64,000 nt of DNA from Actinostola sp. cb2023 (Eukaryota > Cnidaria > Anthozoa > Actiniaria > Actinostolidae), in contig JAUJYZ010000325.1 in the NCBI GenBank assembly GCA_033675265.1, positions 682,001-746,000 on the forward strand, read 5' to 3'. The first letter of the stretch is position 1. Each line of letters opens with the position of its first letter. A program made the translations under genes and the position numbers. Positions 25,769-56,807 of this stretch are shown piece by piece. The notes under the pieces are model-generated. The model did not search any database, was not told where the DNA came from, and saw nothing but the letters and a program-made list of their open reading frames with translations.

Positions 25769-25769
25769 T

Positions 25770-25798
25770 ACTCGGGCCCTTCCGAAGGAAGCCCGAGT
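25770..25798 (+). repeat. Helentron 5' hairpin (outer left end)
   Basis: ACTCGGGC ... GCCCGAGT outer stem, with inner CTTCC/GGAAG complementary arms around GAA. Same form at 26413-26441 and 26478-26506. Confidence 0.85.
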
Positions 25799-26411
25799 TA
25801 TAAAATACAAATTCTTTTTATTTTTTTCATGGTCATAGAATGCGAAGTATTTGATCGTATCGAGTTTCAAGATTACTCCTGAAGCAGATAAGGGAAGACA
25901 AACGACACACAGGACTCAAGTAGATTTGAATCTTAGTTTTGAAAGCAGCTGTAAATCTTGAAGCTATCGAAAGGTCAGGATTCTAGTTCGCTATGTCATG
26001 TTTGTTATTAGGCGACATTGTACCCCAGAGTAGGCCTTTTGTTGCTAATTGTAATAGTACGTGTACAGTTATGTCCTTGAGTATTTATAATTGAACTCAC
26101 GACCAGTGATGTAACTACATCTAATACGGAAAGCTATATGTACAGAAGTCATGCAAACAGTCGAGGCAGTCGAGACTGAAAAGCAAGCCATCGAAACGCA
26201 TACGCTTAATACTACATACCAGATACGCATACTCTAAATCTTCCTCGAGCGTTTTCGAAAGGGCTTTCTACGACTTCATTCCACGAACTCGAACTCATCA
26301 AAAAATGAACTGAAAATCAAATGAAATGAACTCAAAAACTATCATGACCTCGCTATGTCATGTTTGTTATTAGGCGACATTGGACCCCAGAGTAGGCCTT
26401 TTGTTGCTAAT

Positions 26412-26544
26412 TACTCGGGCCCTTCCGAAGGAAGCCCGAGTTAGAAAATACACTTTCTTTTTTTTATTTTTATTATTACTCGGGCCCTTCCGAAGGAAGC
26501 CCGAGTTAGAAAATACACTTTCTTTTTATTTTTATTATTATTAT
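26412..26544 (+). mobile_element. Two closely spaced Helentron-like 5' ends
   Basis: Hairpins at 26413-26441 and 26478-26506, each followed by TTAGAAAATACACTTTC and a T/A-rich tract, are arranged in direct orientation. The second starts inside the first, showing insertion of one 5' end about 65 bp downstream of another. No nearby 3' terminus is paired with either. Confidence 0.75.
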
Positions 26545-27136
26545 TTTTTTTTTCAGGTGAAGGAATGACAAAAAAATGCGAAGAATGCGATGTATTTGAT
26601 CCTATCGAGTTTCAAGATTTCTCATCATAGATCTTCAAGCTATTAAGTTCAGGATTGTAGTTGATCATTCCACGATGAAGCTAAGGCGCGTTTGCTTTTG
26701 TTATAAATGAAACGACATCTTTCAGAGTGGGCCCACACGAATAGCCGTATGCTTTTGTCTGTGAAATGAGCCTGTTTAAAGCCCGTGTTTTATCGGCTGT
26801 TCTATAACGCCTTTCCACGAACTCGAACTCATATCCAAAAATGAATTGAGACAAAGGCGATCGAGCAAGGTCAATGTTCGAAAATCCGTGTTCTTTTCAG
26901 TAAGATGACAGTTGTAAAGTGATCCTTATCTGAGTCATACATCTATTACCGGCGACCTAATTTTAGAACCGTTGATTTAAAACCGAATTTCCACGCTCAA
27001 AACAGGTCAGTGAACGGCAAAAATACAATCGAAATCAAAACGTCCTTAGATTTTAGGGATCTATTATAGAAGAAGACGCTCAATGACGAGGGAGACTTGT
27101 GTCTGACTCATAGATAAAGATCTCCGCGGACTCTTG
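26545..27136. repeat. Segmental duplication, copy 1 (partner 53708-54490)
   Basis: The stretch from TTTCAGGTGAAGGAATGAC through AGATGACAGTTGTAAAGTG to GATCTCCGCGGACTCTTG occurs again at 53708-54490 in the same orientation. The second copy has extra sequence around 54015-54240. Copy 1 ends where a Helentron-like 5' hairpin of the CTACC/GGTAG type (27139-27163) begins. Confidence 0.75.
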
Positions 27137-27737
27137 TTACTCGGGCTACCGTGGTAGCCGAGTCTAAATCTGCAGTTTGTGTCATGTAAAATCTTTTCGT
27201 CGAGGAATGACAGGAATGTCTGTAATAAGGTTTTCGATTGGCTCAAAAATAATCGAAACCATGGCAACGTATTTCATGGTGACGGAGTACATGATTCATG
27301 AGGATCATTCATGAGCGTCTTCATCGTCCGCCATTAGTTCTTTGAAAGGATGTTGTTTGAAGTTATACGTCGTCTTCTTCTCCAAACGCTCACTATGCTT
27401 ACAAATGCACAAGTCATTCGCGGTAGGCCCACACCAAAAGATGTCGAGCGATTTATGAAGGGGTCGGTCCGCGAACTCAAAGAGAAATCAAATGAGAAGC
27501 TATTTTAAAACTAGCACAGCTAAGTGACAAGACTATCAACTCTTGTACTGAAAAGTACTACTCAGATAATCAGATGCTGTCAAAGAAAACAAGTCAACCT
27601 GCTTGATCCCGGCCTTGATGTACGACAAGAAGTACGAAACATTCGCCATCTTGGAAGCACACGTGAATTAGAAGGACAGTCAACCAAATGAATTATAGTA
27701 CGCGAAAAAAAACCGCTTTAAAGTTGAAAACGTTAAG

Positions 27738-28277
27738 GTGAATATGATGACTATATTCCTTTTTTGCGTTTCAGTTATTATTGGTACAATGTATGCGTCA
27801 CAAAATATAACTTTTGTGTTGCTCTTCTCGAGCGTATCTCTCACAACGTTGTGCATATTAGTGTTCTTGTTTATGTCATCAGCAGAACCTGTTGTGAATA
27901 CATTTGATGATCATCATATACTAGAGAAAGCTATGCAGTTATATGTAAATATTCATCATGATGATTCAGTGACAATAAAGATGAGAAAAGACTAGATCTC
28001 GTTATTATGCGAAGTTTGTTTATTATAATTGCAACCGTGTTGCATGTTCCTGTCTAGTGGCGGTCGGCGTGATCGTCAATCAAGCAATATTCCACTGATA
28101 AAACTGAAACGTCTTATACAAGAGCAGAAAACTAAGGAGATTTTATATCTGGAAGAATATCCTGAAAAATGCACCAAAATTCATTGTTTTAATAAAGGTC
28201 TGAAAGTGAAAGATCATAAAACGAGGTATGAGAATCACGTGCTGAAGTTATACATAACAGAAATGTCATTCACCTGA
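27738..28277 (+). pseudogene. Two short unrecognised frames upstream of the protease-like relic
   Basis: An 85-codon frame (27738-27995) begins with ATG and is strongly hydrophobic over residues 3-50, with two possible membrane segments. It is followed by an 82-codon lysine-rich frame (28029-28277) starting without ATG. They lie in the same orientation as, and just before, the broken cysteine-protease-like sequence. They may be decayed upstream parts of the same transposon polyprotein. I recognise no family and the calls are weak. Confidence 0.25.
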
Positions 28278-28329
28278 GATTTCTCCTAGGTTAAGAAACA
28301 CACGAATAAGGCAGGTAAATATTATCCAC

Positions 28330-28668
28330 TATTTACATGTACTGTTCCAAATACTTACAAGACTCTCAATCACAGAGCAAATTGTTGCAAGTTCAGCCTT
28401 TGTAGAGATATAGAAAAAAATCCAGGATCTTCACATTATATTCATCCCAGTAAAACAATTGTTGCTCCCTATAGTCAAGGTATTAAATGTTGCATTATTT
28501 GGTGTCAATGCCGGTCGTCAGTGTGTAGCTATGTCACTGTGTGCTCTGATATATAACCACAAATTCAATTACTTCGCCAATGGACTTGGCAAACATAATG
28601 AATATTGGAAATCAATTATATTCAACACTATCAAGGTTATACAACCAAGCTTTCATGCTATTAACAGA
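28330..28668 (+). pseudogene. 5' half of a transposon cysteine-protease-like domain, with 2A-like motif
   Basis: The translated sequence contains a degenerate 2A-like motif DIEKNPGS (28406-28429) and PSKTIVAPYSQG. After a one-base frame change near 28480 it continues as FGVNAGRQCVAMSLCALIYN. From memory, the block GxQCVAMSLC after a 2A-like motif occurs in large proteins of rolling-circle transposons of cnidarians and fish, where the Cys would be the nucleophile of an OTU-like or related thiol protease. Coding similarity stops at INRT (28668). The very next bases form a reversed Helentron 3' end (CTAGACGCTCCGTGAGCG). The matching 3' half lies at 49094-49470. Frameshifted, so not functional. 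Confidence 0.6.
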
Positions 28669-28699
28669 ACTAGACGCTCCGTGAGCGTTCACTTGGCGC

Positions 28700-29796
28700 G
28701 GTTGGGATGATCAGCTGCATGGAACTCAGTAGCCAAGAGCTTTTCCACAGTCGACAATACCAGCTCAGAATGGGTATAAACAGCAAAAATACAATCGAAA
28801 AACATCCTTTGATTTTATGGAACTAATTCAGAAAATAGTGCAGAAAATAGTTAGAACGGAACTAAATATAGGCATTGCAGCGTGACTTAACAAACTGTCA
28901 CTCGTTGCGTGACTGTACTCGCTAGAACATGCATGCGTAATTAGCTGCAGTATCAAGTGGTAGATTTTCTCTTCTATTTTGACGATATTCGACCATGGAG
29001 CTATTGTAATTATAGCCAAGAACTAACGAACTTAAGCTTAATAGTTGATCTTTAATCTCGACTTCATTGAAGTTCAGTAACTGTAAAACTCTATTCAGAC
29101 TATTGATAACTTTATACTTGCCAGATTACATCCACGATTCTATAAATCGCGTGTTTGCATAAGAAATACAAGGTGATTTTAACCTTGGCTGCTGATGTCC
29201 CTACGTCTACTGATATAAATACTGCTCTACAAGAGCAGAGAGAAATCATTGGAGGAATTTACGCTTCGTGTGGCGACTGTTGTTGCATTTTCTTGTCGTA
29301 CACCCGCTTCTATAAGTTCTTCAGATCAGTAGTCTGGTATTCATCAGCATCTGAGTAATACTTTACAGTACAAGAGTTGATAGTCATGTCTTTAGTCATA
29401 GTTTCGTAATTTGTATCAGTGGTTTGGTTTTAATATTTCTAGTTTGTTTATATTTTGCTCATTTGATCTCATACTCATAGTTTGCTTTGAATTCTCTTCG
29501 AGTTCGCAGGATAGCCCGGTCCAAAATCGCTCACTGACATCTTTAAGAGTAGGCCGAGCGTTTGTAAGCATAGTAAGCGTTTGGAGAAGAAGGTAATGAA
29601 GAACTTCGAACCAAATCTTTTCGATACCCAAAGTCAAAGAGAACGAACGATCGAACTGAGTGATAGTTGCCATGGTTTCAACTTTTGACCAATCAAATGA
29701 CGTGCTGCTCCTACGACCGGGATAGACTGGAACTTCTAACCGGAAAAAAGCCCATTTTAAGACTTGGCGTCTGCCACAGGCAGTCCACGCCAAGTA
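28700..29796. other. Interval between reversed Helentron ends, no recognised gene
   Basis: Mixed repeat debris of the Helentron complex. Opposed overlapping frames at 29411-29855 are not supported by motifs or splice context. Confidence 0.4.
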
Positions 29797-30203
29797 ACAA
29801 GACGCTCAATGAGCGTATACTCGGGCTTATGATAAGGACAATGTCAGTTGCGTGAGGAGAGACTGGACAATGACTGACAGTTGCGTGACGAGGGAGACTA
29901 TGTATATATGTGTCGAGTTCATTTGATTTGCTGTTGAGTTTGAGTTGATTTGATTACGTTTTGACTTAGAGTTTAATTGATTTGCTTTAATTTTTATGAG
30001 TTCAGTCGTGTAAAGGCCCAGTCGAAAACGCTGAACATCTTTTAGAGTTGGCCCACACGAATCGGCGTATGTGGTTTGTATGTGAGAGCGTATTTAAGAA
30101 AATCTGTGGATGGCTTGTCTTAAATACAAGATAATTTACCTTTTGGCCAGATCAACTACTTCTTATACTTCTAGTCTTCGAAGACGATAGCTTAATAGTA
30201 TCC

Positions 30204-30650
30204 AGGGGCGGATCCAGGGGAAGGGTTCTGGGGGTTGCAACCCCCGCTATGGAATTTTTTTTAATACCGCTTGTATAGATATGTCTGTCCGTAGGTCTCT
30301 CTTGCACTTTCAACTGTCTCCCTCGTAAGAATAATATAATTCATTCATACTGTTTATACGACCGTTCGACTTCGAGGCAGGTTTGACTGATAAGAGAAAG
30401 AACCTGCCGTTTTTAGCGTCAAAAACGTATGTGAAGTCTTCACTGATTTGTAAGCTCACCCAAGAAGAGTCTTCCAAGCATCTTTGTTGGATGTCCAATA
30501 AACTGAAAATTTTACTGAAAATTGAGTTTTGTTGTGTTAATAAAACAACTCCAGATCTCTAAAAATTGCATTTTAGAGTTTGTAGATTTCAAAATTTTCT
30601 GGGGGGGCATGCCCCCACACCCCCTAGTACTTCACGGATTTGCCGCTCAC
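30204..30650. mobile_element. Insertion with hAT-like CAGGGGCGGATCC end
   Basis: Starts CAGGGGCGGATCCAGGGG, a hAT-like terminus, and contains GGGGGCATGCCCCC (about 30603). The inverse copy of the flanking sequence at about 56395 lacks this segment, which identifies it as an insertion. The right terminus is not clear. The neighbouring 30650-30890 is homologous to 55978-56145 reversed. Confidence 0.5.
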
Positions 30651-31741
30651 AAAAAGACAATAGATCTGCTTGGAGCCGAAAGTTAGTTTTCTTGCACGTC
30701 CACATTCAGAAAATAGATTTAGTGAAGTGAAGATTTCCGAGACCTTATACTGGAAGTCTCCTTCTTTCTTATTCATGGTGTGTTGATAGATTATAACTGT
30801 CTTAAGAAGAAACAAATACTAAGAATGCGAATTTCTTTCTGATGTTTGTTCGATGCTTAGGCCTTCGTCATCTCAAAGTGGTATTATGTAGCTTGTAACT
30901 ATGTGAAGAAACCATGATAATAAAATAGCGAATCTCTTAGTGATGTGTAAACGATGTTGGTGGCGCTGAATGTATTTTTAGTAACATGGTTTTTGCATGG
31001 CGCGGTGGATGAATGGCGCAAGTGGTGTTATCCCGCGAATGACTGAGGTCTAAAGTTGGACTGCGGATTGCGGATTGCGGGCTGCGTATTGTAAAATTTG
31101 TAGACATATACCAACCACTTTGAGGAACTTGAAAAGTGGTGGCTAAATATAGGAAAGGAGGTTGATAAAGGTTCGTTAGATGAAGTTCTATTGCTGATTT
31201 TTGCGGATAGGACTACTATAGACCTCTTGAACTTGTATGGAAACTGCTCATTTGAAACGATATGATGGAACCTCTTCAACTTGTATGAAAACTGCTCATT
31301 TGAAACGATCTGATGAAAACATGGTGTTCTCTCGATGATTAGTCATTTCAATATGAACGAATAAATGTCTGAATTGTTACGGATAAATTCTCCTGAGAAC
31401 ACCATGTCATTTTAAATGAGATGGGTTGAAGTGGCCAATTTGACGATAGAAGTTCAACATCATGTTCTGGTTGTACGAAAGGTGAATATCTCTAACGTAT
31501 TGAATGTATTGGATAGCTGCATCATTTTTATCCGTTGGGTGAGACTTATCAGGTGGATAGCGCTAATCACCTTTCGTGCAACCGGGGCCAGGTCTCTTGA
31601 TTTGACTCATTCAACAGAATGGTTATGCAAGTGTGTTCATCTTTCAGTTGCTAATAATAGATTATTCGTCACGCGTAGAAGCATACACCAAATACCATTA
31701 CGCGCAATTCATAATGACATTTTTCCGTGGATATAAAGAAT

Positions 31742-32195
31742 CTACGTTACAGTCCAAAGTGTGAGATCCCGGTGGGGTGGGGGGATATATGCTATACGGG
31801 TATGTGCTGCGGGATAGGGTATGGTTTTTGAGCTCCAAGTTCTGGGGTAGGGTATCATTTTGTGCTTTTTTAGTCTGGGATAGGGTACGTTTTGGTCTGG
31901 TATAGGGTATGGTTTCCGCAATAACGCCAATATCAGTCGCTATCAGTTTACATATCCCTTTAGCACGCTTTCAATTAAACAAAAGAGCTTAATATGTCAG
32001 CGATATGTCACTTTGGTAAACACTCCATTGTTGAAACGATAAGTCTGGAATAGGGTATACATTTTAAAGCTTTAGTCTGGGATAGGGTATAGATTTTTAA
32101 GCTTTTGTCTGGAATAGGGTATGGAAAATCAAAATTTTAGGTCTGGGATAGGGTTAGGGTTTTGAAGTGTCCGTGGCACACTCCTACCCAAAAAT
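31742..32195. repeat. GGGATAGGGTAT minisatellite block
   Basis: Repeated (T)CTGGGATAGGGTATNNTTTT units of 30-45 bp. Interrupted by unrelated AT-rich sequence at 31925-32040 and ending in a GTGCCCCCC tract. Same family as 22533-24180 and 39428-39830; the last copy is very similar, including the flanking AACGCCA(A/C)TATCAGTCGCTA. Confidence 0.8.
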
Positions 32196-32199
32196 AGTC

Positions 32200-34200
32200 T
32201 TAGTGCCCCCCCTGGGTGTGAGACAGGGAGCCTAAATGTTGTTTTGACTTCGGTTTCACCAAGATCGATATTAACAAACTGTACTGAATTTGAAGCTGGT
32301 CCAACAATTCTTTATTACTTTTATTCAAAAGGTTATAGCAGTTGAATTGTATTAAATATGTTTCCGGCGGACGTATGTTCTTTTCGATTGGAGTAATTTT
32401 TCTTTCTATTCTATTCTATCTCGCTTTAGTCCGTTTCAGTTTCATTTCACTGTTAGGAAGATAAGAAGGGTACTTTCCATCAACGTACGTATCTAATTCA
32501 GATAAGGATAATTATTTGCTGCAACTCTGTTCCACTGATTCCTCTATGAAAGATGGAGTCTGACATCAGTATTGAATGACAAAGTGTTCTTCTACGAGCA
32601 AAAGTAATAAATCATAGAATATTCTTTATACAGCTTTATCACACTGTTTTGCATTTGTTGAGAATGTTGGTTATGTTGTAATTTCTCTTGAAGTCTTCTT
32701 GAAATGACTTTCGACAGTTTTTCCTTGTTATATTGTTTCAGTTAATATATTTGTGTATCTTCTCTTTCAATCCTTTGAAGCAGATCAGCGCAAGTGCGAT
32801 TTCCTTTCGCTTATTGTTTGTCATGTCATAAAAGTATTGAATTGTTACTTGTCGAAGTTATAAAAACTGGCACTGGCACTCGCAATCCAGTTCAGTTGAC
32901 ATGCGCCAACTTTTTATTCCATGGATACATTTAGGATGTTCATTTTCATGTAGAGCGTAGTATATTTTGCCTTCGCAAAGTCATCAACAGGTGGTAAGAA
33001 GATGTGGTGTTATTCTCGCCGATGGAAGAGTAATTCTTTATTCGATCCGTTTTTTGGCGCCATAAATATGCACCCTCAAGTGACCTCAATTACGTTTAAA
33101 AACGTATCGAAGAGTCGAAGATCTTTATCGATGTTCACCGACACAAATATCCTTCCTCGTCACGCAACTGTCATTGTCATATTGCCCGACTATACGCTCA
33201 TTGAGCACCTTCTTTTGTATTTTTGCCGTTCACTGACCTGTTTTGAGCGTTCTTCGTCGACCCCAGAAAGCATATTGGGCTCTACAGCGCATGCGCCCTG
33301 TACTTTATGATCATTCTAAACCATAGTGTTTTATCTTTTTAATCTATCCCTGAAACATTGCAACACGTACAATCGTATTCTGCACGGTTTTCGCTGAATA
33401 AACAGATTAGATCACTGTTATCTTTATAATCTATCTCTGAAACATTCCGAACACGTACAATCTACATGTGTAAGTATTCTGCACGGTTTTCGCTCAATAA
33501 GCACATTACATCAATACCTTCCCTACATGTTTGATGCATTAGTCTACGGCGCGCGGCCTCTTGCTCGATCGAGCTTTATTGCCATTGACAATATTTCATT
33601 GACAATGGATATATGGTCGAGAGCAAATCAAAATTAGCAACAAAAGGCCTACTCTGGGGTCCAATGTCGCCTAATAACAAACATGACATAGCGAGGTCAT
33701 GATATGAGTTCATTTCATTTGATTTTCAGTTCGTTTTTTGATGAGTTCGAGTTCGTGGAATGAAGTCGTAGAACAGCCCTTTAGAAAACGCTCGAGGAAG
33801 ATTTAGAGTATGCGTATCTGGTATGTAGTAAGCGTATGCGTTTCGATGGCTTGCTTTTCAGTCTCGACTGCCTCGACTGTTTGCATGACTTCTGTACATA
33901 TAGCTTTCCGTATTAGATGTAGTTACATCGCTGGTCGTGAGTTCAATTATAAATACTCAAGGACATAACTGTACACGTACTATTATAATTAGCAACTAAA
34001 GGCCTAATCTGGGGTCCAATGTCGCCTAATAACAAACATGACATAGCGAACTACAATCCTGACCTTTCGATAGCTTCAAGATTTACAGCTGCTTTCAAAA
34101 CTAAGATTCAAATCTACTTGAGTCCTGTGTCTCGTTTGTCTTCCCTTATCTGCTTCAGGAGTAATCTTGAAACTCGATACGATCAAATACTTCGCATTCT
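32200..34200. other. Helentron-complex filler, no gene
   Basis: Contains inverse copies of 26030-26380 (33650-33990) and of 54855-55150 (33400-33640), and a decayed internal 3' hairpin CTATACGCTCATTGAGCACC (about 33190). Short frames only. Confidence 0.5.
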
Positions 34201-34470
34201 ATGACCAGGAAAAAAAAAAAAAGAATTTGTATTTTATAACTCGGGCTTCCTTCGGAAGGGCCCGAGTAATAACATGCTCAGTAGACCAAATGCAGTGTGT
34301 AGCGTTACGCATTGTACACAGTATCTATAGCAGTCATTGAAGGGTCAGGTCTACTAAACCCTAAAATCGATCGTTTTCTAAGATTTTGTTTGGAAAATGC
34401 ATTGGATGGCAAGAGGGGGTAGATGCACAAAAGTCCTGGCTATTACTCTATTGTCGTTCTTCCAGGACTT

Positions 34471-35153
34471 CTCAAGGTAGTTAAGGCCTGGGTCAGGAGC
34501 AAAAAACTAAAACATACGTTTTTTTGACATTTAAACGTGGCGACTAGAGGTAACTAGACGAAACTTGGCACAATGATAGAAGACGTTAGGACAATTATAC
34601 TTAACTTCATTTTGAGGGTTAGAGTGATCACGTGACCACGTGATGTCATTAGTTATTGATAGAAAATTCGTTTTATTCTCCGCTCACGAATTTTATTTAC
34701 AAATACAAGCTGATGTATCTATCTTACTTCAATTACCGAGTTGTACGAATCCCTGCATAGAGATTGGGATTTTCTTTAACACTTAAGGATATATTTGCTA
34801 AAACAGGTCACGTGACCTGAACTTTTAAACAATTTTCCTTAATATTTCTATTACCAACATAACAGTACAAGATCTCTATGCAGCATGTTATTCAGCTCTA
34901 TTTGAAGCATTGATTTTGATATTAATTTTTTTGCCACTTACAAAACTCGAAAGCGGATCCACGAATTAGTGTTTTTCTGGATTATGACGTCATAGATCAC
35001 GTGACCACCACAAAAAGCAAGCCAAAATTTTAAGGATGTCAAAACTAACAAAATATATAAATATGACTTGAAAATGTATTTCCATAGTCAAGCAATTATT
35101 CATTCTGTCCTCAAGGTCAAACAAGGTCAAACCCATGCCTTAACTACCTTGAG
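34471..35153. mobile_element. 683-bp TIR element (CTCAAGGTAGTTAAGGC)
   Basis: The left end CTCAAGGTAGTTAAGGCCTG and the right end ATGCCTTAACTACCTTGAG are inverse complements with one mismatch. The interior is unique and contains several CACGTGA motifs. No coding frame. No convincing flanking duplication beyond TT. The inner part of its TIR (TTAAGGCATGG) resembles the element at 43990. Confidence 0.6.
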
Positions 35154-35621
35154 TTGTGCAGCTACATGACGACCATTGTTTAGCCTTTTTATAAAATACG
35201 CAATGTATACAGTCTTTAGAAGTCGGTGGAGCATATAATAGTTTGGTGTATTTATCCATTCCGTGAGAATCTCTTAGCAGTGTTTAGCTGCCTTTATACT
35301 CTGGTGTGTTCATTTTTCAATGCAGACTATTGTTACATTCCATGTTCTGCATTATTAAAGAGATGTCCGCTCCTATTCTGTTGTTCTTGACTTGTTACTG
35401 TGAGAATGGAGTTAAGCTATGTACTCACAGAGTCGATAGAGTATAACATATTTTTGTGGAGGAGAAAACAAAGAGGGGGTGGGTATGCATGGAGCCTGCA
35501 AGCGGGGAACCTTCATGTACACATGTCAACAGGTATTTCAAACCAGCTAAAATCCATCAACCCATGCATAAACCTGTTTTCAAAAACGTTGTCCTTTTAC
35601 AAAATACAAACTAGTAATATA

Positions 35622-35810
35622 GAGTGCAAACCATATGTCCGTGAAATAGTACTATTTATAATAGAGTGCACACTAGACTACTATGTCCGTGAAATAGTAC
35701 TATTACTAAATAGTACTAAATAGTGTTATCTCTATTGTTTTCTATTGTTTCATCAGTGCTATTTAGTACTAATTAGTTAGTACTGTTTCACGGACATATG
35801 GTTTGCACTC
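35622..35810. mobile_element. 189-bp MITE with TA duplication (GAGTGCAAA family)
   Basis: The termini GAGTGCAAACCATATGTCCG and its complement are flanked by TA (35620-35621 and 35811-35812). An extra internal copy of the terminus (about 35664) suggests self-insertion or duplication. Relative of 6157-6309. Confidence 0.8.
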
Positions 35811-35905
35811 TAGTATAAAAGAATTGATTAACAATAAGCCAGAGTTCAGCTTGAGTGCATTTCTTTTGTTTCTCTAGTTAATTCATTTTTTGCAATTTTA
35901 CTATT

Positions 35906-36721
35906 TACTCGGGCCCAGGCCGCAGGCCGCCCGAGTTAGAAAATGCGGATTTCGGTAGTAGTAGTAGTAGTAGTAGTTTTGTTCGGCTTCAAAATGACGA
36001 GTATGCGACGTATTTAATCGTATCCGGAGTTTCAAGATTACTCCGCAGATTTGAAAAGATAAAGGAGACACAGGACTCAAGTAGATTATGAATCTTAGTT
36101 TTGAAAGCAGCTGTAGATCTTCAAGCTATTAAAAGGTCAGGATTCTAGTTCATCGTTCAATGACTAGAAGTGGTAAAAGGACTAGAAGCTCGCTTAAAAT
36201 ATATATTTTTTAAAACAAACGCGAGGCCGTTATCGGAACCATCTGACCTATGCAACCTCAAGACGTATCATGTTCGTACTCACCGGACTAATAGTCTCCC
36301 TCGTCACTCAACTGTCACTGATTGTCATGACGTCAGAGAAATTATATTGTATTGAAGAAGATGTCCTTGTTTTATTCGACGTTCGAACCGTAACTCGAAC
36401 CCGAACTCGATTCCAAACTCGACGTTTCGGGATCTGAAGCTAGAGGGGACCTTTACACAAACTCATCAAAATCAAATCAATTGAACTCAAAGTCAAAAGG
36501 TAATCAAATGAACTCAAAGGCAAATCAAATGAACTCGACACATACATGTATATACATAGTCTCCCTCGTCACGCAACTGTCAGTCATTGTCAGGTCTCTC
36601 CTCGCGCAGCTGACATTGTCCTTGTTCTTCAACCAACTGGCATTCATTTTCAAGTACTTCCTCGAACAACTGACATTTTCCTTTTCACAATGCCCGAGTG
36701 AACGCTCATTGAGCGTCTTGT
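35906..36721 (+). mobile_element. 816-bp Helentron-like unit, complete ends
   Basis: Starts T + ACTCGGGCCCAGG, a hairpin of the GGCC/GGCC type (35907-35936), followed by TTAGAAAATGCGGATTTCGG and a TAG microsatellite. Ends GCCCGAGTGAACGCTCATTGAGCGTCTTGT at 36721. It contains the subterminal CACGCAACTG and CAACTGACA motifs. Short frames inside are by-products of the repeats. A closely related unit lies at 52199-53016. Confidence 0.75.
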
Positions 36722-37101
36722 TTGTATTTTTTAAAAGGGCAACGTTTTTGAAAACAGGTGTAACCATGTGTCTGCATGGTAGACCGCATTCTTTTCGAAA
36801 TGGAATCGTCCTTTCTTGTTTGCATCTTTAGATACGTTACTAAATTTCCCCGGTTCTTCGGACGCCTCGTACAAACAAAATCAAGGATTTGGTAAAAGAA
36901 AACAAGACATAAAATTAAAGAAATGATAACCTTGCTTGAGTCGCTTTTTAGCAGCGGCACATGGTTGAGAATTGAACCCTGTTGCGATGTACCGGTAATT
37001 AAATTATTTCAGGTCGGTGATGTCAGTATTCAGAATACTGAACAATTGTTTGGATATTTTTCGAATCAACAATTTAACGTGTGTGTTTTCCACATGATGC
37101 A

Positions 37102-42866: not shown

Positions 42867-42897
42867 GCACCAAATGTCTTACTAATCTTGATAGTAA

Positions 42898-43491: not shown

Positions 43492-43542
43492 CATTGGCCT
43501 TACCTATTATTATTATCTTTATTATTATATTTTTTATGTATA

Positions 43543-46671: not shown

Positions 46672-47290
46672 ATAAGCAACGTCGACAGACAAGCCCGAAT
46701 AGACGATGAAAATAGACCATGACGTAATGTCTCCAGCGGTCAGCGGTTGACGATCACCAACCGTGTGCTCCCAGAGGCAAAATGAATGCTGCGATGCTGA
46801 AACACTTCTGTTTCTATGAGTACTACGATTTCGAAATACTCAAAACCTACAACAAACACCTATATAGCAGCACTAGGTCTGTTGTAGGAAAAAAAATAAA
46901 AGGTCTCTGTCAGTGGAGCGGCTCCCACAAATGTTTTTTTTAACTTGTTCAAATTATTTAGAAACATTAATTAAATTGTTGATTAATAGTACATCGTGTT
47001 CCGGAAACAGGAATAAACAAGTTGGATGTTGTTAATAGTATGTAAAAATTCCCTGGCCTTGGACGCTAGACTTGTTGCAAAAGTACGTGCTAAAAATAGC
47101 TGATCAAGGGAATTTTCCAGAATTACGTCACTACTATGTGACGTCATTCACAATAAAGGTTCACACGTACATGCACATTACATTAAGCTTATATATTGTG
47201 AAATATTTATTGATTATTCATACTTCCAAGAAAGAAGGAGAATTCTTCCACTACAGATAAACCCTTACGTGAAAGGAAGTTAGTTTTCTA
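46672..47290. other. Non-repeat interval between Helentron units
   Basis: Sequence not shared with other units that I can see. It may be the upstream part of the putative exon at 47291. No recognisable domain. Confidence 0.4.
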
Positions 47291-47500
47291 ATGGCAAACA
47301 GTAAAGGTACTATAACACGATGTGCCAAGTGCGACGAACTACAACGTCTTTACCTCACAGCGCTACAAGACAAGAGAACCATCTTGGTTCGTCTTCAAAA
47401 AGAGCTCGAACAAGGGCGAAAGCTTCGGGAAGAAGTAGATACAATGAGAAGAGAAGCCAGACAAGCGATCGGACAAAGGAGAACGAATGAACACAACACG
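47291..47500 (+). CDS. Putative first coding exon (70 aa) with splice donor
   Basis: The ATG has a G at +4. The frame of exactly 70 codons runs to GTGAGTAAG, a strong 5' splice site, at 47501, ending in phase 0. The peptide has a CAKC metal-ligand-like pair near residues 12-15 and then a charged heptad-like helix (about 25-62) likely to form a coiled coil. Reading through the donor gives only four more codons. A Helentron unit begins 127 bp downstream, so any later exons are displaced. It may be a host exon captured by, or stranded within, the transposon complex. Family not recognised. Confidence 0.4.
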
Positions 47501-47626
47501 GTGAGTAAGTTTTGAGTTATCGATCATGGCGTGATTATAATTTGAAAAATCTGTCGTTTCAAGCAAGCAGGGTCTATGGTTTCCCCCCTCCTTTTAGCAG
47601 AGGTTTCAGTCGCGAATAAGAATTAA

Positions 47627-49093
47627 ACAAGACGCTCAATGAGCGTTCACTCGGGCATTATGAAAAGGAAAATGTCAGTTGCGTGAGGAAGAACCTGAAA
47701 ATGAATGCCAGTTCGTTGAAGAAAAAGAATATTTATCTATATATTTTTTGGTGTGCATAGATAACAAGAACAGTGTCAGTTGCGTGAGGAGGGACCTGAC
47801 AGTGATTGACAGTTGCGTGAAGAAAGAGAATATGTATATGTGTTTCGGTGAGCATCTCTGAATCGAACTTCCGTAACACGTGCTTGGTACTTCCAGTTGA
47901 AAATCATATTTATGGTCAGACGATTCTGATAACCTCTTTGGTTTCTTCGTTATCGCAAAGGAAATTCGGTCAATTCAATAAATCGTCGAATCAAAAAAAA
48001 TTATTTGCAATATTCTTTCATAGTTAGAAGAGCTCTTTTGTTGTACAGCATTTGTATAATGTAATTAAGGTTTAGTTGTTGGATTCTGAAATTAACGGAA
48101 TGAATGATCAAAATGAATATAAATAGCTTGAGTTCAATTGATTACCTTTGGACTTTGATGAGTTCATGTAAAGTCTGTAAAGGCCCTGTCGAAAACGCTC
48201 AACATCTTTTAGAGTGGGCCCACACGAATCGGCGTATGCGTTTGTATGTGAGAGCGTATTTAAGAGGAACTGATGGATGGCTTGCCTTGGATACAACATA
48301 ATTTCTCTTCTGCACAGGTCAACTGCTTCTTTCACTTCTAGTCGTCGAATACGATGACTTAGCAATATCTCAGTATCTGCCATGAGCGAACAAAACTTCG
48401 GATTAATTGACACGTTTGTCGCGCCATGAATATTCAACCTCAAGTGACCTCAAGTATGTTTAAAGATGTAATACAGATGTACCTCCACGAATCTTTATGA
48501 GTCATCGAGATAAATAGTTTCTCGTCACGCAACTGTCATTCTCACAATACCCGAATATACGCTCGTTGAGCGTCTTCTGCAACAGATCCCTAATAAAAAT
48601 CTAAGGAGGTTTTGATTTCGATTGTATTTCTGCCGTTCACTGACCTGTTTTGAGCGTGGAAATTCTGTTTTAAATAGCGCTTAACGTGGCGGTTCTAAAA
48701 TTAGATCGCGTAATAAATGTATGACTCAGACAAGGATCAAACAACTGTCATCGTACTGAAAAGAACACGGATTTTCGAACATTGACCTTTCTCGCCTTTG
48801 CTTTGATGTAGTTTTGAAGTACGATTTTTACGATTCCTTTTCCTTGTGAATTTTTCAAACGTGGAATAAAATAAACATTCATCGTGAGTTATTGAAAATG
48901 ATACGTCTTGAGGTTGCATAGGTCAGATGGTTCTGATAACGCCCTCACGTTTGTTTTTGTTAAACTTGAAACTCCGGATACGATTAAATACGTCGCATAC
49001 TTTCGTCATTCTTTAACCGACTAAAAAAACTACGACTACTACTACTACCGAAAAACGCATTTTCTAACTCGGGCTTCCTTCGGAAGGGCCCGA
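47627..49093 (-). mobile_element. 1.5-kb reversed Helentron-like unit
   Basis: Reversed 3' end at 47627 and reversed 5' hairpin at 49064-49092, with the (CTA)n tract just inside. The same right end may instead close the 20.4-kb block that starts at 28669. Confidence 0.6.
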
Positions 49094-49470
49094 GTAATTA
49101 CCTGGAATGATCAAACTGTTCGATACTAATTTATTATCAGCTTCAATACAGTCCAAGTTATACTGGCAGTATACATGGCGCCTGTACATTAGATGATTTC
49201 ATTTACTATATGGCCCTGAATAATGGTTTGCAATTATTAATAAGAGAAAATTACAATTCAATTGTTTTGACTATTGGATGTAGTACTATGGCCATTTATT
49301 GTACTATCGATGGTATATTGAAAATATTTGACTCCCATGCTTGAGATTCATTTGGTATGCCTCATCCTAAAGGAACTTGTAGAAGTACAAACCGTAAATG
49401 AATTAATGAATTATTTCCAAACTCTGTATAACAGTTCAAGTGTTTCATTTAAACTCAAAGGTGTAAACTA
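49094..49470 (+). pseudogene. 3' half of the transposon cysteine-protease-like domain
   Basis: Translation starts LPGMIKLFDTN, shifts frame near 49132 and continues SYTGSIHGACTLDDF ... GCSTMAIYC ... GILKIFDSHA, with a stop codon, then SFGMPHPKGTC. The FDSHA block would supply the catalytic histidine partner of the Cys at about 28521. It follows on from the 28330-28668 relic with no evident gap in the domain. With two frame changes and an in-frame stop it is dead. Confidence 0.6.
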
Positions 49471-50634
49471 GTTAGTTCTCACACCCTTTGTATGCAAGCA
49501 AAAAGAACAAAGATTATTCAAATTTGGACCTTACTACTTCGATTTGGTGCTTTGTGTGTCACCAGTACACCGATGCATAGAAAGTCATCAATACCCAGGA
49601 AGCCCGAGTGCACGCATTTATGCGTCTAGTTATAATTAAACTCACGACCAACGCCGTACAACGGTCATGTATAACTCCATCTATTGACAGAAAGCTATAT
49701 GTACAGAAGTCATGCAAACAGTCGAGCCAGTCGAGTTATTTTCAGTAGCTCATGATGGATGTTTATTTTATTCCACGTTTGAAAAATTCAGAAGGAAAAG
49801 GAATCGTAAAAATCGTTCTTCAAAACTACATCCTCAAAGCATTTAAGGCAAGCAAGGTCAATGTTCGTAAATCGTATAGCCCTTCATCTGGCAGACATAT
49901 AATCTCCCTCGTCACGCAACTGTCAGTCATTGTCAGGTCTCTCCTCACGCAACTGACATTGTCCTTTTCATTTTATATAGAACTGCCGCGTAGGCTATTT
50001 AAAACAGAATTTCCACGCTCAAAACAGGTCAGTGAACGGCAAAAATACAATCGAAATCAAAACGTCCTTAGATTTTAGGGATCTATTGCAGAAGAAGACG
50101 CTCAGTGACAAGGGAGACTATTTCGGTCGGTGACTCATAGATAAAGATCTCCGACTCTTGAAAGTACGCTGTCATACGTATTTAAACGTATTTGAGGTCA
50201 CTTGAGGTCACATCTTAATCTAACAGAAGCAGCTTTTGATTTTTAATCGATAATTCCTTTCTGATTTCGAGATAAATCGAACAAGATTTTTTAATGTATA
50301 GGCAGAGACAGCAGATTGGTCGAGCTTTGTCACATCATACTGAATCAACTGGATGTTTAAAAATACGAAGTTCTAACTCATGATGGATGTTTATTTTATT
50401 CCACGTTTGAAAAATTCAGAAGGAAAAGGAATCGTAAAAATCGTACTTCAAAACTACATCAAAGCATTTAAGGCAAGTAAGGTCAATGTTCGTAAATCGA
50501 GATCGTATAGCCCTTCATCTGGCAGACATATAGTCTCCCTCGTCACGCAACTGTCAGTCATTGTCAGGTCTCTCCTCACGCAACTGACATTGTCCTTTTC
50601 ATAAGCCCGAGTGTACGCTCATTGAGCGTCTTGT
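49471..50634. other. Helentron-derived mosaic, no gene
   Basis: Contains a divergent 3' end GCCCGAGTGCACGCATTTATGCGTCTAG at 49604-49631. Also two near-identical blocks starting CATGATGGATG (about 49751 and 50379), each running into the subterminal CACGCAACTGTCA region. The second ends with a complete 3' end at 50634. Confidence 0.6.
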
Positions 50635-51488
50635 TACTCGGGCCCAGGCCGTAGGCCGCCCGAGTTAGAAAATGCGTTTTTCGGTAGTAGTAGTTTTCTT
50701 CGGCTCAAGAATGACGAAAGTATGCGACGTATTTAATCGTATCGAGTTTCAAGATTACTCAGCAGATAAGAACAAACCACACACACAGGACTAAAGTAGA
50801 TTATGAATCTTAGTTACTCGGGCCCTTCCGAAGGAAGCCCGAGTTAGAAAATGCGTTTTTCGGTACAGGACTAAAGTAGATTATGAATCTTAGTTTTGAA
50901 AGCAACATGTCGTTAATAATCCGTTACTGAGCAGCTTCGTATTATGTCTCTGAAGCTAGAGAGCAAGGGTTTGATTTTTCAGTAGATTTTGTTTAGATAG
51001 CTAATATCGCTTTGCTTGCTGCCTGACTGTCGTAACGCGAGGGCGTTATCGGAACCATCTGACCTATGCAACCTCAAGACGTATCATGTTCGTACTCATC
51101 CGACTCATAGTCTCCCTCGTCACTCAACTGTCACTGATTGTCATGACGTCAGAGAAATGATATTGTATTGAAGAAGATGTCCTTGTTTTATTCGACGTTC
51201 GAACCGTAACTCGAACCCGAACTCGAACTCGATTCCAAACTCGACGTTTCGGGATCTGAAGCTAGAGAGGGGGCCTTTACACGAACTCATCAAAATCAAA
51301 TCAATTGAACTCAAAGTCAAAAGGTAATCAAATGAACTCAAAGTCAAAGGCAAATCAAATGAACTCGACACATACATGTATATACAGTCTCCCTCGTCAC
51401 GCAACTGTCAGTCATTGTCAGGTTTCTCCTCACGCAACTGACATTGTCCTTGTCATAAGCCCGAGTGTACGCTCATTGAGCGTCTTGT
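50635..51488 (+). mobile_element. 854-bp Helentron-like unit, head of tandem array
   Basis: Starts immediately after the 3' terminus of the preceding unit (CTTGT|TACTCGGG junction at 50634/50635). It carries a second 5' hairpin at 50816-50844 inserted in direct orientation and ends with a full 3' hairpin at 51488. Its interior is nearly the same as 53112-53706. Confidence 0.8.
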
Positions 51489-52198
51489 TACTCGGGCCCA
51501 GGCCGCAGGCCGCCCGAGTTAGAAAATGCGGATTTCGGTTGTAGTAGTTTTGTTCGGCTTCAAAATGACGAGTATGCGACGTATTTAATCGTATCCGGAG
51601 TTTCAAGATTACTCCGCAGATTTGAAAAGATAAAGGAGACACAGGACTCAAGTAGATTATGAATCTTAGTTTTGAAAGCAGCTGTAGATCTTCAAGCTAT
51701 TAAAAGGTCAGGATTCTAGTTCATCGTTCAATGACTAGAAGTGGTAAAAGGACTAGAAGCTCGCTTAAAATATATTTTTTTTTAAACAAACGCGAGGCCG
51801 TTATCGGAACCATCTGACCTATGCAACCTCAAGACGTATCATGTTCGTACTCACCGGACTAATAGTCTCCCTCGTCACTCAACTGTCACTGATTGTCATG
51901 ACGTCAGAGAAATTATATTGTATTGAAGAAGATGTCCTTGTTTTATTCGACGTTCGAACCGTAACTCGAACCCGAACTCGATTCCAAACTCGACGTTTCG
52001 GGATCTGAAGCTAGAGAGGGGGCCTTTACACAAACTCATCAAAATCAAATCAATTGAACTCAAAGTCAAAAGGTAATCAAATGAACTCAAAGGCAAATCA
52101 AATGAACTCGACACATACATGTATATACATAGTCTCCCTCGTCACGCAACTGTCAGTCATTGTCAGGTCTCTCCTCGCGCAGCTGACATTGTCCTTGT
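51489..52198 (+). mobile_element. 710-bp Helentron-like unit lacking the 3' hairpin
   Basis: Follows head to tail from the previous unit. It has the GGCC-type 5' hairpin (51490-51519) but ends at ACATTGTCCTTGT, about 30 bp before the usual 3' hairpin, where the next unit starts. CCTTGT mimics the normal terminus TCTTGT. Confidence 0.8.
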
Positions 52199-53016
52199 TA
52201 CTCGGGCCCAGGCCGCAGGCCGCCCGAGTTAGAAAATGCGGATTTCGGTAGTAGTAGTAGTAGTAGTAGTTTTGTTCGGCTTCAAAATGACGAGTATGCG
52301 ACGTATTTAATCGTATCCGGAGTTTCAAGATTACTCCGCAGATTTGAAAAGATAAAGGAGACACAGGACTCAAGTAGATTATGAATCTTAGTTTTGAAAG
52401 CAGCTGTAGATCTTCAAGCTATTAAAAGGTCAGGATTCTAGTTCATCGTTCAATGACTAGAAGTGGTAAAAGGACTAGAAGCTCGCTTAAAATATATATA
52501 TTTTTAAACAAACGCGAGGCCGTTATCGGAACCATCTGACCTATGCAACCTCAAGACGTATCATGTTCGTACTCACCGGACTAATAGTCTCCCTCGTCAC
52601 TCAACTGTCACTGATTGTCATGACGTCAGAGAAATTATATTGTATTGAAGAAGATGTCCTTGTTTTATTCGACGTTCGAACCGTAACTCGAACCCGAACT
52701 CGATTCCAAACTCGACGTTTCGGGATCTGAAGCTAGAGAGGGGGCCTTTACACAAACTCATCAAAATCAAATCAATTGAACTCAAAGTCAAAAGGTAATC
52801 AAATGAACTCAAAGGCAAATCAAATGAACTCGACACATACATGTATATACATAGTCTCCCTCGTCACGCAACTGTCAGTCATTGTCAGGTCTCTCCTCGC
52901 GCAGCTGACATTGTCCTTGTTCTTCAACCAACTGGCATTCATTTTCAAGTACTTCCTCGAACAACTGACATTTTCCTTTTCACAATGCCCGAGTGAACGC
53001 TCATTGAGCGTCTTGT
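52199..53016 (+). mobile_element. 818-bp Helentron-like unit
   Basis: GGCC-type 5' hairpin (52200-52229), TAG microsatellite (52247-52269), subterminal repeats and a complete 3' end at 53016. Nearly the same as 51489-52198 over its first 700 bp and as 35906-36721 throughout. Confidence 0.8.
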
Positions 53017-53111
53017 TCTTCAACCAACTGGCATTCATTTTCAAGTACTTCCTCGAACAACTGACATTTTCCTTTTCACAATGCCCGAGTGAACGCTCAT
53101 TGAGCGTCTTG
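52920..53111 (+). repeat. 96-bp tandem duplication of the Helentron 3' end
   Basis: Two copies (52920-53015 and 53016-53111) of TTCTTCAACCAACTGGC ... GAGCGTCTTG, each containing the inner inverted repeat GCCCGAGT and the terminal hairpin. Copy boundaries fall exactly at the CTTG|T terminus. Confidence 0.85.
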
Positions 53112-53706
53112 TTTTGAAAGCAACATGTCGTTAATAATCCGTTACTGAGCAGCTTCGTATTATGTCTCTGAAGCTAGAGAGCAAGGGTTTGATTTTTCAG
53201 TAGATTTTGTTTAGATAGCTAATATCGCTTTGCTTGCTGCCTGACTGTCGTAACGCGAGGGCGTTATCGGAACCATCTGACCTATGCAACCTCAAGACGT
53301 ATCATGTTCGTACTCATCCGACTCATAGTCTCCCTCGTCACTCAACTGTCACTGATTGTCATGACGTCAGAGAAATGATATTGTATTGAAGAAGATGTCC
53401 TTGTTTTATTCGACGTTCGAACCGTAACTCGAACCCGAACTCGAACTCGATTCCAAACTCGACGTTTCGGGATCTGAAGCTAGAGAGGGGGCCTTTACAC
53501 GAACTCATCAAAATCAAATCAATTGAACTCAAAGTCAAAAGGTAATCAAATGAACTCAAAGTCAAAGGCAAATCAAATGAACTCGACACATACATGTATA
53601 TACAGTCTCCCTCGTCACGCAACTGTCAGTCATTGTCAGGTCTCTCCTCACGCAACTGACATTGTCCTTGTCATAAGCCCGAGTGTACGCTCATTGAGCG
53701 TCTTGT
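53112..53706 (+). mobile_element. 5'-truncated Helentron-like unit
   Basis: Begins within the unit interior (TTTTGAAAGCAACATGTCG) without a 5' hairpin, and ends with a full 3' hairpin at 53706. Nearly identical to 50890-51488. Confidence 0.75.
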
Positions 53707-53707
53707 T

Positions 53708-54490
53708 ATATTTTTTTTTTCAGGTGAAGGAATGACAAAAAAATGCGAAGAATGCGATGTATTTGATCCTATCGAGTTTCAAGATTTCTCATCATAGATC
53801 TTCAAGCTATTAAGTTCAGGATTGTAGTTGATCATTCCACGATGAAGCTAAGGCGCGTTTGCTTTTGTTATAAATGAAACGACATCTTTCAGAGTGGGCC
53901 CACACGAATAGCCGTATGCTTTTGTCTGTGAAATGAGCCTGTTTAAAGCCCGTGTTTTATCGGCTGTTCTATAACGCCTTTCCACGAACTCGAACTCATA
54001 TCCAAAAATGAATTGAAAAGCAAATGAACATGACCTCGCTATGCGATGTTTGTTGCTTAATTGTAATATTACGTGTACAGTTATGTCCTTGAGTATTTAT
54101 AATTAAACTCACGACCAGCGATGTAGCAACATCTATTGACAGAAAGCTATATGTACAGAAGTCATGCAAACAATCGAACCAGTCGAGTTATTTTCAGTAA
54201 CTCACGATGGATGTTTATTTTATTCCACGTTTGAAAAATTCGTGTTCTTTTCAGTAAGATGACAGTTGTAAAGTGATCCTTATCTGAGTCATACATCTAT
54301 TAGGCGACCTAATTTTAGAACCGTTGATTTAAAACCGAATTTCCACGCTCAAAAAACAGGTCAGTGAACGGCAAAAATACAATCGAAATCAAAACGTCCT
54401 TAGATTTTAGGGATCTATTACAGAAGAAGACGCTCAATGACGAGGGAGAATTGTGTCTGACTCATAGATAAAGATCTCCGCGGACTCTTG
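53708..54490. repeat. Segmental duplication, copy 2 (partner 26545-27136)
   Basis: Direct copy of 26545-27136 with about 200 bp of extra sequence (54015-54240). The left edge lies next to the 3' terminus at 53706, suggesting it is the remainder of an interrupted unit. Confidence 0.7.
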
Positions 54491-56807
54491 TTATAATTAA
54501 ACTCACGACCAACGCCGGTCATGTATAACTCCATCTATTGACAGAAAGCTATATGTACAGAAGTCATGCAAGTCGAGCCAGTCGAGTTATTTTCAGTAAC
54601 TCATGATGGATGTTTATTTTATTCCACGTTTGAAAAATTCAGAAGGAAAAGGAATCGTAAAAATCGTACTTCAAAACTACATCAAAGCATTTAAGGAAAG
54701 CAAGGTCAATAGTTCGTAAATCGAGATCGTATAGCCCTTCATCTGGCAGACATATAGTCTCCCTCGTCACGCAACTGTCAGTCATTGTCAGGTCTCTCCT
54801 CACGCAACTGACATTGTCCTTTTCATAAGCCCGAGTGTACGCTCATTGAGCGTCTTGTTTTAATTTGCTCTCGACCATATATCCATTGTCAATGAAATAT
54901 TGTCAATGGCAATAAAGCTCGATCGAGCAAGAGCCCGCGCGCCGTAGACTAATGCATCAAACATGTAGGCAAGGTAGTGATGTAATGTGCTTATTGAGCG
55001 AGAACCGTGCAGAATACGTACACATGTAGATTGTACGTGTTGCAATGTTTCAGAGATAGATTATAAAGATAACAGTGATCTAATCTGTTTATTCAGCGAA
55101 AACCGTGCAGAATACGATTGTACGTGTTGCAATGTTTCAGAGATAGATTATAAAGATAAAACACTATGGTTTAGAATGATCATAAAGTATTGTATATGTA
55201 CAATGAAACAGTTTTTGGTTGCTCGTTGTTGCGTGACTCAAGCTCGATAGAACATGCTTTCCTTGCAATTTCAGTACTGCGAACTTTACAGTATATACTT
55301 CACTAGACGAGAAAAGATTTATATTTTGGCCCCTTGACCTCCGGTGCTTTCCCTGATTGGTTTGTGCTTTCTAATCTTTCTTGTTTTCAGTAACTCATGA
55401 TCGATGTTTATTTTATTCCACGTTTGAAAAATTCAGAAGGAAAAGGAATCGTAAAAATCGTACTTCAAAACTACATCAAAGCATTGAAGGCGAGCAAGGT
55501 CAATGCGGTTCGTAAATCGAGATCGTACATAGCCCTTCATCAGACATATAGTCTCCCTCGTCACGCAACTGTCAGTCATCATCAGGTCTCTCCTCACGCA
55601 ACTGACATTGTTTTTAAATAGAACCGCCGCGTAGCGCTATTTAAAACAGAATTTCCACGCTCAAAACAGGTCAGTGAACGGCAAAAATACAATCGAAATC
55701 AAAACGTCATTAGATTTCAGGGATCTGTTACAGAAGAAGACGCTCAATGAGCGTATAGTCGGGTATTTAATATGACAATGATAGTTGCATGACGAGAAAG
55801 ATTATTTGTATCGATGAGTATCGATAAAGATCTTCGATTGTTCGAAGACGTATATCATACGTTTTCAAACGTACTTGAGGTCACTTGTTGCATATTGATG
55901 GCGCCAGAAACGGGTACCCCGTTGAGATGACGAAGGCCTAAGCATCAACCAAACATCAGTACGCAATTCGCACTCTTAGTATTTGTTCTTTTTCAAACAG
56001 TTATAATCTATCAACACACCATGAAGAAGAGAGAAGGAGTCTTCCAGTATAAGGTCTGGGAAATCTTCACTTCACTAAATCTATTTTCTGAATGCGGACG
56101 TCCGACAAAACTAACTTTCGGCTCCAAGCAGATGTATTGTTTTTTTTTAGGCCGAATATTTTCACTCTGATTTTGACTAAAATGATATCAGAAAAGCATC
56201 ACAAGAACGAGAAGAAAGAAGTTCGCTATTGGTACTTTCTTCTTGCTGTTCTGCCTTGAACAATTAAGAAAACCATTCCGAACAATTGATGTAATCGATT
56301 TGAAAAATAGCAAATTCGATGGAAAATCAAAGGCTTTAATATAAAGTCGTGAAAATTTCGGGTTTTCCAAAAAGCCTGTTGATCAGAGCAGATACTAAGA
56401 CATAAGCCATCGTCTTCGACGACTAGAAGTGAAAGAAGTAGTTGATCTGGCCAAAAGGTAAATTATGTTGTATTCAAGACAAGCCATCCACAGTTCTTCT
56501 TAAATACGCTCTCACATACAAACCACATACGCCGATTCGTGTGGGCCAACTCTAAAAGATGTTCAGCGTTTTCGACTGGGCCTTTACACGACTGAACTCA
56601 TCAAAATTAAAGCAAATCATCTATTGAACTCTAAGTCAAAACGTAATCAAATGAACTCAAACTCAAAAGCAAATCAAATGAACTCCACACATATATACAT
56701 ATTCTCCCTCGTCAAGCAACTATGAGTCATTGTCAGGTCTTTTGATCCTCACGCAACTGACATTGTCCTTATCATAAGCCCGAGTATACGCTCATTGAGC
56801 GTCTTGT
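54491..56807 (+). mobile_element. Right end of the complex: two further Helentron 3' ends
   Basis: Complete 3' ends lie at 54858 and 56807, with subterminal CACGCAACTG motifs. 55930-56807 is the inverse copy of 29797-30890. 54860-55150 is the inverse of 33400-33640. No 5' hairpin occurs in this stretch, so these ends pair with distant starts at the left edge or with lost ones. Confidence 0.6.

Follow-up and report, generated by a model that had tools for sequence, protein, structure and literature searches.

A block of nested Helentron-type insertions in an Actinostola genome, one layer of which appears to have copied a complete enzyme gene

Introduction

Helitrons are known for shuffling gene fragments. 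The locus described here raises the question of how a 31-kb block bounded by the two ends of a Helentron-type element came about, and of what it carried. The window, the whole stretch of 64,000 nucleotides that was analysed, corresponds to C944:682001-746000 in the 424-Mb assembly (1594 contigs) of Actinostola sp. cb2023, in which a single assembled haplotype was compared; it has a G+C content of 38.7% and contains no N. We consider that the block is best explained by small non-autonomous Helentrons (HINEs) that inserted into each other at T|T sites, with one layer, E, produced by composite rolling-circle transposition, a reading to which we give a probability of roughly 0.74. Layer E appears to have copied a complete NADPH-oxidase/ferric-reductase gene (NOX) from elsewhere in the same genome. 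The block is a readable record of insertion order. The first-pass annotation of the window, which had described a single 31-kb rolling-circle element, did not mention the complete gene in one of the layers and its donor-like locus.

Results

An insertion defined to the base in a TTAA-flanked transposon

25769..56807, forward strand: whole inserted block of nested HINE/Helentron units; its outer ends are those of element A
25145..62547, no strand: outer TTAA-flanked DNA transposon with long inverted repeats (TTAA at each end; at least 40 matches to the flank, many of them in inverted pairs)
25145-25768 and 56808 on: left arm of the outer transposon, in which the block sits; the other arm lies at about 61784-62547

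The joined flanks of the block and the reverse complement of their second copy in the window gave one alignment (727/737 identities, 4 gap bases), unbroken over 25768|56808. The left flank ends in ACTAGT, the block starts with TACTCGGG and ends in CTTGT, and the right flank starts with TTTGGGG. The alignment collapses exactly at 25768/56808, so the insertion is defined to the base, as had been claimed. The accompanying claim that there is no target duplication stands in part: the empty site is indeed T|T, but a one-base T duplication would look identical, because there is a T on both sides.

A 200-bp piece of the flank had at least 40 matches in the genome, the window copy included, all at 100% (best 40 of 186 candidates scored), and many of the matches listed form inverted pairs a few kilobases apart; nine of these pairs were taken for comparison. 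The flank is therefore a repeat, and the supposed paralogue 5 kb away, said to preserve the empty site, is the other arm of the same transposon. The site there is truly empty, but it is also uninterrupted in all 25 further arms examined (7 + 18, the arms of the window not counted). The window copy has TTAA at 25145-25148 and 62544-62547, and the listed ends of the other copies also have TTAA, except for one copy with an altered end. A TTAA target duplication, a trait of the piggyBac superfamily, is thus present, and the outer transposon is, judged by its ends, a TTAA-target element with long inverted repeats; an assignment to piggyBac is not claimed. This transposon carries a further insertion at 57422-59446, the ends of which are inverted copies (57419-57691 and 59169-59451); in five copies the match jumps from about 57408-57422 to 59447.

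Layers that heal to sequences intact elsewhere

25769..26412, forward: element A, left piece, with the left-end (LE) hairpin TACTCGGGC...GCCCGAGT
54861..56807, forward: element A, right piece, with the right end (RE) GCCCGAGTATACGCTCATTGAGCGTCTTGT
26413..26477, forward: element B, left piece (healed-junction alignment)
53708..54860, forward: element B, right piece (healed-junction alignment)
26478..27138, forward: element C, left piece (healed-junction alignment)
49632..50635, forward: element C, right piece (healed-junction alignment)
27139..28668, forward: element D, left piece, LE TACTCGGGCTACCGTGGTAGCCGAGT; uninterrupted in the 19 other copies cut out
49097..49631, forward: element D, right piece, RE AAGCCCGAGTGCACGCATTTATGCGTCTAGT
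28669..29795, reverse: HINE X, of a different end family, with ends ACTTGGCG...CGCCAAGT; abuts E
50636..53707, forward: head-to-tail HINE array between C and the rest of B, with junctions at 50635/6, 51489/90 and 52199/200

The nesting order, from outer to inner, is A (2.6 kb), B (1.2 kb), C (1.7 kb), D (2.1 kb) and E (19.3 kb). Healed A matched its sibling A' (the downstream HINE of layer E) at 96.8% over 976 columns, crossing the join; healed B matched C at 98.9% over 375 columns, crossing the junction at 65, and healed C matched B at 94.9% over 607 columns, crossing the junction at 661. The 3' part of D had 29 matches in the genome, 20 of which (19 plus the window) were cut out, the other nine, some of them short or diverged, being left out. 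In all 19 other copies examined, 28668 joins 49097 directly and the site of E and X is uninterrupted; D is therefore about 2.07 kb long. D was also considered as a large gene carrier (27139-49631), a candidate dropped in view of these uninterrupted copies and of their length of about 2.1 kb. The search for a decayed Helentron protein in D found short open reading frame (ORF) pieces with no match above the Pfam cut-offs, and an Rfam search of the window gave no match.

The proposal of a single 31-kb insertion does not survive these comparisons: the outermost element is about 2.6 kb long and the remainder consists of later insertions nested inside it. Nor does the unusual size attributed to the element, since taking out each layer (A against A', B against C, C against B and D against its 19 copies) restores a sequence that is intact elsewhere. 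Each of the five sites (the outer arm, A, B, C and D) allows a placement with T on either side in element orientation, so that a one-base T duplication is inseparable from none at all five. The T rule is not absolute, the base after the RE of D being T in 16 and another base in 4 of 20 copies.

In the array at 50636-53707, two units are 97.5-99.4% like the unit at 35905-36723, and one unit is cut just short of its 3' end, with the next left end immediately after it. The array looks like rolling-circle concatemers. At 52916-53113 the final 96 bp of a HINE, 3' palindrome included, are present in a perfect tandem duplicate, as if the terminator had been copied twice.

Element ends, target motif and a related Helentron

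The Helentron-like character proposed in the first-pass annotation is supported, the ends being of Helentron or HINE type. LE hairpins ACTCGGGC...GCCCGAGT and RE motifs GCCCGAGT-NN-ACGCTCATTGAGCGT-CTTGT recur through the block. The elements have the features of HINEs, namely a palindromic subterminal inverted repeat at the 5' end, with an inverted copy (GCCCGAGT) before the 3' palindrome; the short palindrome ACGCTCATTGAGCGT followed by CTTGT near the 3' terminus; and insertion at TT without visible target duplication, with empty sites found for the outer transposon, D and C1294 (see below). The RE motif, searched as CCCGAGTNNACGCTCATTGAGCGTCTTGT, occurs exactly 3439 times in the genome, and its reversed control 0 times; the window has 14 occurrences, all inside the block, where 0.25 would be expected from the genome-wide density.

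The motif TWRT|T was found at 17 of 19 distinct non-tandem LE flanks, as compared with 1154 of the 13474 TT sites of the window. This count rests on 19 of the 22 distinct LE flanks in the sequences examined, three directly behind an RE having been dropped; the flank at 52198, which abuts a truncated unit, could also be dropped, giving 16 of 18. The 3' ends of the elements themselves, CTTGT and CTAGT, fit TWRT|T, so that each element, once inserted, provides a further target where it ends, and this would explain the piling up of the elements on each other.

The genome also holds a further feature expected with HINEs, a Helentron that has coding domains and ends related to theirs. At least 138 genome matches to Helitron_like_N were obtained (150 of 161 candidates scored), and one of them belongs to a Helentron at C912:305166-318740 (examined within C912:302001-323000) that starts with TACTCGTGCCCAGGCCGTAGGCCGCACGAGT at 305166 and ends with GGCACGAGTGAACCCTGACGACAGGGTCTAGT at 318740. 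One of its frames runs uninterrupted for 2566 codons between stops and contains OTU, DUF6570, Helitron_like_N and PIF1 domains above the Pfam cut-offs; the endonuclease domain (22.6 bits, cut-off 24.5) and, in a second frame, an RPA-like OB domain (26.6 bits, cut-off 27) lie just below them. The domain set is that described for Helentrons, with these two domains just below the curated cut-offs. Its LE is 88-90% identical to those of the block over 39-42 bp, and its 3' palindrome has a layout like that of the HINEs and a different sequence. We infer that this Helentron, which is possibly active, may move the HINEs of the block.

Layer E and a donor-like locus for its NOX gene

29796..49096, reverse: layer E, composite of HINE1, a host segment with the NOX gene and HINE A'; T|T insertion at the D/X boundary
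47626..49096, reverse: HINE1, a complete unit that forms the 5' end of the composite and is matched end to end elsewhere
34270..47625, reverse: putatively captured host segment, about 6.1 kb at the donor-like locus C1294:90998-97082; the window copy has later insertions
29796..34269, reverse: HINE A', the downstream element, the RE of which ends the composite; also in C1294
40978..42552, forward: NOX gene, open over 524 codons, intronless (ORF, Pfam)
44802..46671, reverse: HINE unit put into E after E moved; C1294 is empty there
35905..36723, forward: HINE unit inserted in E, outside the C1294 alignment

Layer E runs from the LE of HINE1 through the RE of this element and the host segment to the RE of A', and therefore matches the product expected if copying bypasses one terminator and stops at the next. 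HINE1 matched another genomic locus from end to end (99.3% over 1472 columns), and its 3' 400 bp had at least 41 matches, with the top score at no fewer than 14 other loci (best 40 of 2373 candidates scored).

The FAD, NAD and ferric-reductase domains of NOX are above the Pfam cut-offs. The best matches of the protein have 65-82% identity, and the named ones are cnidarian (Exaiptasia 65%, Hydra 57%). In the genome there were only two matches, the window and C1294:94169-95734, at 99% (three candidates, all scored). NOX as an old Helentron component is not favoured, because close homologues exist and only two copies are present in the genome. Next to NOX, and within the stretch common to C1294, the ORF at 42898-43488 resembles by eye the C-terminus of a LINE-like reverse transcriptase; it had no Pfam match.

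C1294:90998-105429 is colinear with window positions 29796-47636, at 97.6-99.8% per piece, and, with a minimum of 250 bp at 88%, C1294:50001-140000 matched the window nowhere outside the block. The homology stops exactly at the 3' end (RE) of HINE1, where C1294 continues into its own flank with no HINE, and exactly at the 3' end (RE) of A', which C1294 also carries. A 386-bp stretch of one C1294 flank matched only itself, as did the first 339 of 401 bases of the other (best 40 of 223 candidates scored); therefore, no haplotig was seen. We call C1294 donor-like because these flank pieces match only themselves and there is no left end on the HINE1 side.

Outside the ORF, the nine pieces common to the window and C1294 cover 8149 window bases and differ by 19 substitutions. 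Gaps add a further 92 bases, of which the piece at 42560-44800 alone accounts for 67. Over 521 codons of NOX there are 2 synonymous and 6 nonsynonymous substitutions and three residues of in-frame gaps, and neither copy has a stop. On these figures, the two copies are young. Three changes set the window copy apart from C1294 and the 13 homologues compared, which all agree at these positions: an extra N, G to D and R to K. C1294 differs at one place, V to L, where the window and 12 of the 13 homologues have V and one has I; the remaining differences are not polarisable. Although the numbers are small, this fits a window copy released from constraint.

Three stretches of the donor-like locus (C1294:97366-98671, 100679-102781 and 103896-105053) are absent from the window copy and are probably later insertions of its own. 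A 0.7-kb element at 34461-35151 of the window, with the terminal inverted repeat CTCAAGGTAG and an apparent TT duplication, is absent from the same place in C1294. Both NOX copies thus probably kept collecting elements at less than 0.3% divergence.

A second composite within layer E

37101..40781, reverse: second composite, 3681 bp: HINE (40781->39994), host piece, HINE, host piece, HINE (37976->37101)

Three HINEs in the same orientation, separated by two pieces of other DNA, make up the second composite. At the position of 37101-40781, C1294 has an undisturbed T|T site; on this comparison, the composite landed at T|T in E after E had moved. A 242-bp part of the larger host piece had four genome matches: the window, C1220:234851-235092 at 100% and two at 86-89%. 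The alignment reaches C1220:234520-235642 (99.1%), with the host part at C1220:234847-235642, and there the left end of the downstream HINE is present and the upstream HINE is absent. The smaller host piece matched C1220:226689-226882 at 97% (six matches in all, the other four short), and C1220:225810-227100 matched window 37101-38398 at 99.4% over 1298 columns, down to the same final RE base. The two host pieces lie about 8 kb apart on C1220, a spacing that we take to represent further insertions, this stretch having been read in part only.

In both events, the moved stretch has the LE of a complete element at its 5' end and, at its 3' end, the RE of a downstream element in the same orientation, as expected of composites; the full length of the upstream element was compared with another locus for HINE1 only. 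In both, too, the RE of the 3' HINE is present at the assembled donor-like locus, from which the 5' HINE is absent.

A proposed sequence of events and its alternatives

According to our preferred explanation, one arm of an unrelated TTAA-target transposon would have taken up a nested succession of HINEs, inserted at T|T. For layer E, replication would have started at the left end of HINE1 and passed its terminator (3'-end bypass), about 6 kb of downstream host DNA with the complete NOX-like gene would have been copied, and copying would have ended only at the terminator of the neighbouring HINE, A'. This would have given one product, estimated at about 12 kb at that time, which would have been pasted at a T|T site in D, and a second composite may have landed inside E later by the same logic. 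The nesting, the exact ends, the empty sites, the donor-like loci and the open gene are direct observations; we infer both the rolling-circle chemistry and the presence of HINE1 in a donor haplotype outside the assembly.

Several observations weigh against this explanation. In two of two events the donor-like loci, C1294 and C1220, have no upstream HINE, and the exact donor molecule is not among the assembled loci. The terminator of HINE1 is intact, so its bypass was not forced by a broken terminator. The C1220 HINE diverges from the window HINE inside the element (234520), and the donor junction of the second event is CTTAT|ATT rather than T|T. No further copy of E that would indicate renewed movement was found in the NOX genome search (two matches). 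Finally, the total difference between the window and C1294, 27 substitutions in 9.7 kb, is small enough for wrongly joined alleles. We therefore say that the two events work like composite rolling-circle transposition, short of proof, because in the one assembled haplotype the downstream element is present at C1294 and C1220 and the upstream one is missing.

The chief rival accepts the nesting but takes the NOX segment of the window to be a second haplotype of C1294, misjoined on both sides through the HINE repeats of 1.5 and 4.5 kb. The divergence lies within the allelic range and HINEs are numerous, as the count of exact RE motifs indicates. However, the assembly would have to be misjoined twice, each time precisely where a HINE ends and each time within the same copy of D, in a window without N; the pieces of both C1294 flanks match only themselves, and the three changes of the window NOX at positions conserved in C1294 and the 13 homologues are those expected of a freed duplicate. 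We consider such an assembly error improbable.

Alternatively, the 3' end of a transposing HINE may have jumped straight to the donor site by template switching, so that no donor ever had an upstream HINE. The absence of this element from the donor-like loci of both traced events is what this mechanism would give, as is the donor junction that is not T|T. However, the junctions CTAAT and CTTAT resemble the usual 5' side of a HINE target, as if a HINE had simply inserted, an argument that presumes polymorphism of such insertions; the chance of a template switch seems slim to us. The NOX segment could also have moved as a circle that arose when the HINEs on either side of it recombined and that then integrated by homology into a HINE resident in D, given that HINE1 and A' flank the segment in direct orientation. 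With a resident element as the partner, recombination would leave chimeric outer ends, whereas HINE1 matches another copy end to end and A' matches the A' of C1294 to the last base, making a circle very improbable. The idea of a single non-autonomous Helentron of 31 kb that inserted all at once can be dismissed, even though the block is bounded by a true LE and RE and its T|T empty site is clean, since A, B, C and D each heal to sequences intact elsewhere, decisively so for D (19/19), and the recipient sites of the inner insertions are empty in C1294.

Returning to composite transposition, a wider idea is that HINEs constitute a recurrent gene-copying machine in this genome, in which a HINE landing across a gene from another HINE in the same orientation could copy the whole gene to a new place, in the same or the next round, the upstream HINE perhaps being joined to the donor only in the transposing molecule. 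Such joining would explain its absence from the donor-like loci in two of two cases. We offer this generalization as tentative and rather doubtful.

Other features of the window

Arrays of a 17-bp minisatellite are present at 1-978 and 60009-61073, the second inside the outer transposon, and an ORF for a nanos-type RNA-binding protein (Pfam zf-nanos) lies outside the block, at 16575-17351.

Discussion

The acquisition of full-length genes by Helitrons is called exceptionally rare in a review (PMC6431247, in the part drawn on here, as for the other papers cited). A maize Helitron with an intact cytidine deaminase copy (PMC1657028) is a precedent for an intact gene and is similar in that a complete ORF was copied by a rolling-circle element and the donor gene is identifiable; it differs in being a plant element with a CTAG end and an AT target, with the gene inside one element and no flanking pair of complete elements. 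The Helitron2-type FoHeli elements of Fusarium (PMC5148889) likewise have asymmetric inverted repeats, with hairpins at both ends of FoHeli1/2, and their target, TNAT|T, resembles the TWRT|T of the elements of the block. However, they are fungal, and the part of that paper considered describes no composite gene transfer.

The 3' transduction by Helraiser/Helibat has been shown experimentally: in cell culture, it made up about 11.7% of the events obtained with the intact element (PMC4778049). It resembles our case in that the 3' end is bypassed and flanking DNA is carried along, but the element is a bat Helitron and the alternative terminator lies further downstream, whereas the genuine RE of a neighbouring HINE was used in the composites proposed here. 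For a complete gene moved between two HINEs, with a donor and an empty site, there is no described case in the portion of the open PMC literature covered, outside which most subscription journals lie.

The closest comparison is with HINE/DINE-1 elements (PMC4067079), which are similar in their palindromic subterminal inverted repeats near both ends, 3' palindrome, TT target and occurrence in clusters; here too, a Helentron with the same end layout is present in the same genome. In the sections of that 2014 study considered here, Helentrons contain gene fragments, the histone ones with stops, and end bypass or composite transposition is proposed only as a possible cause of gene duplications near DINE-1. 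The locus described here differs in having a whole open gene, a donor-like locus, both element ends and an empty recipient site. All of these are defined to the base and accompanied by a second nested event, which makes the idea directly testable.

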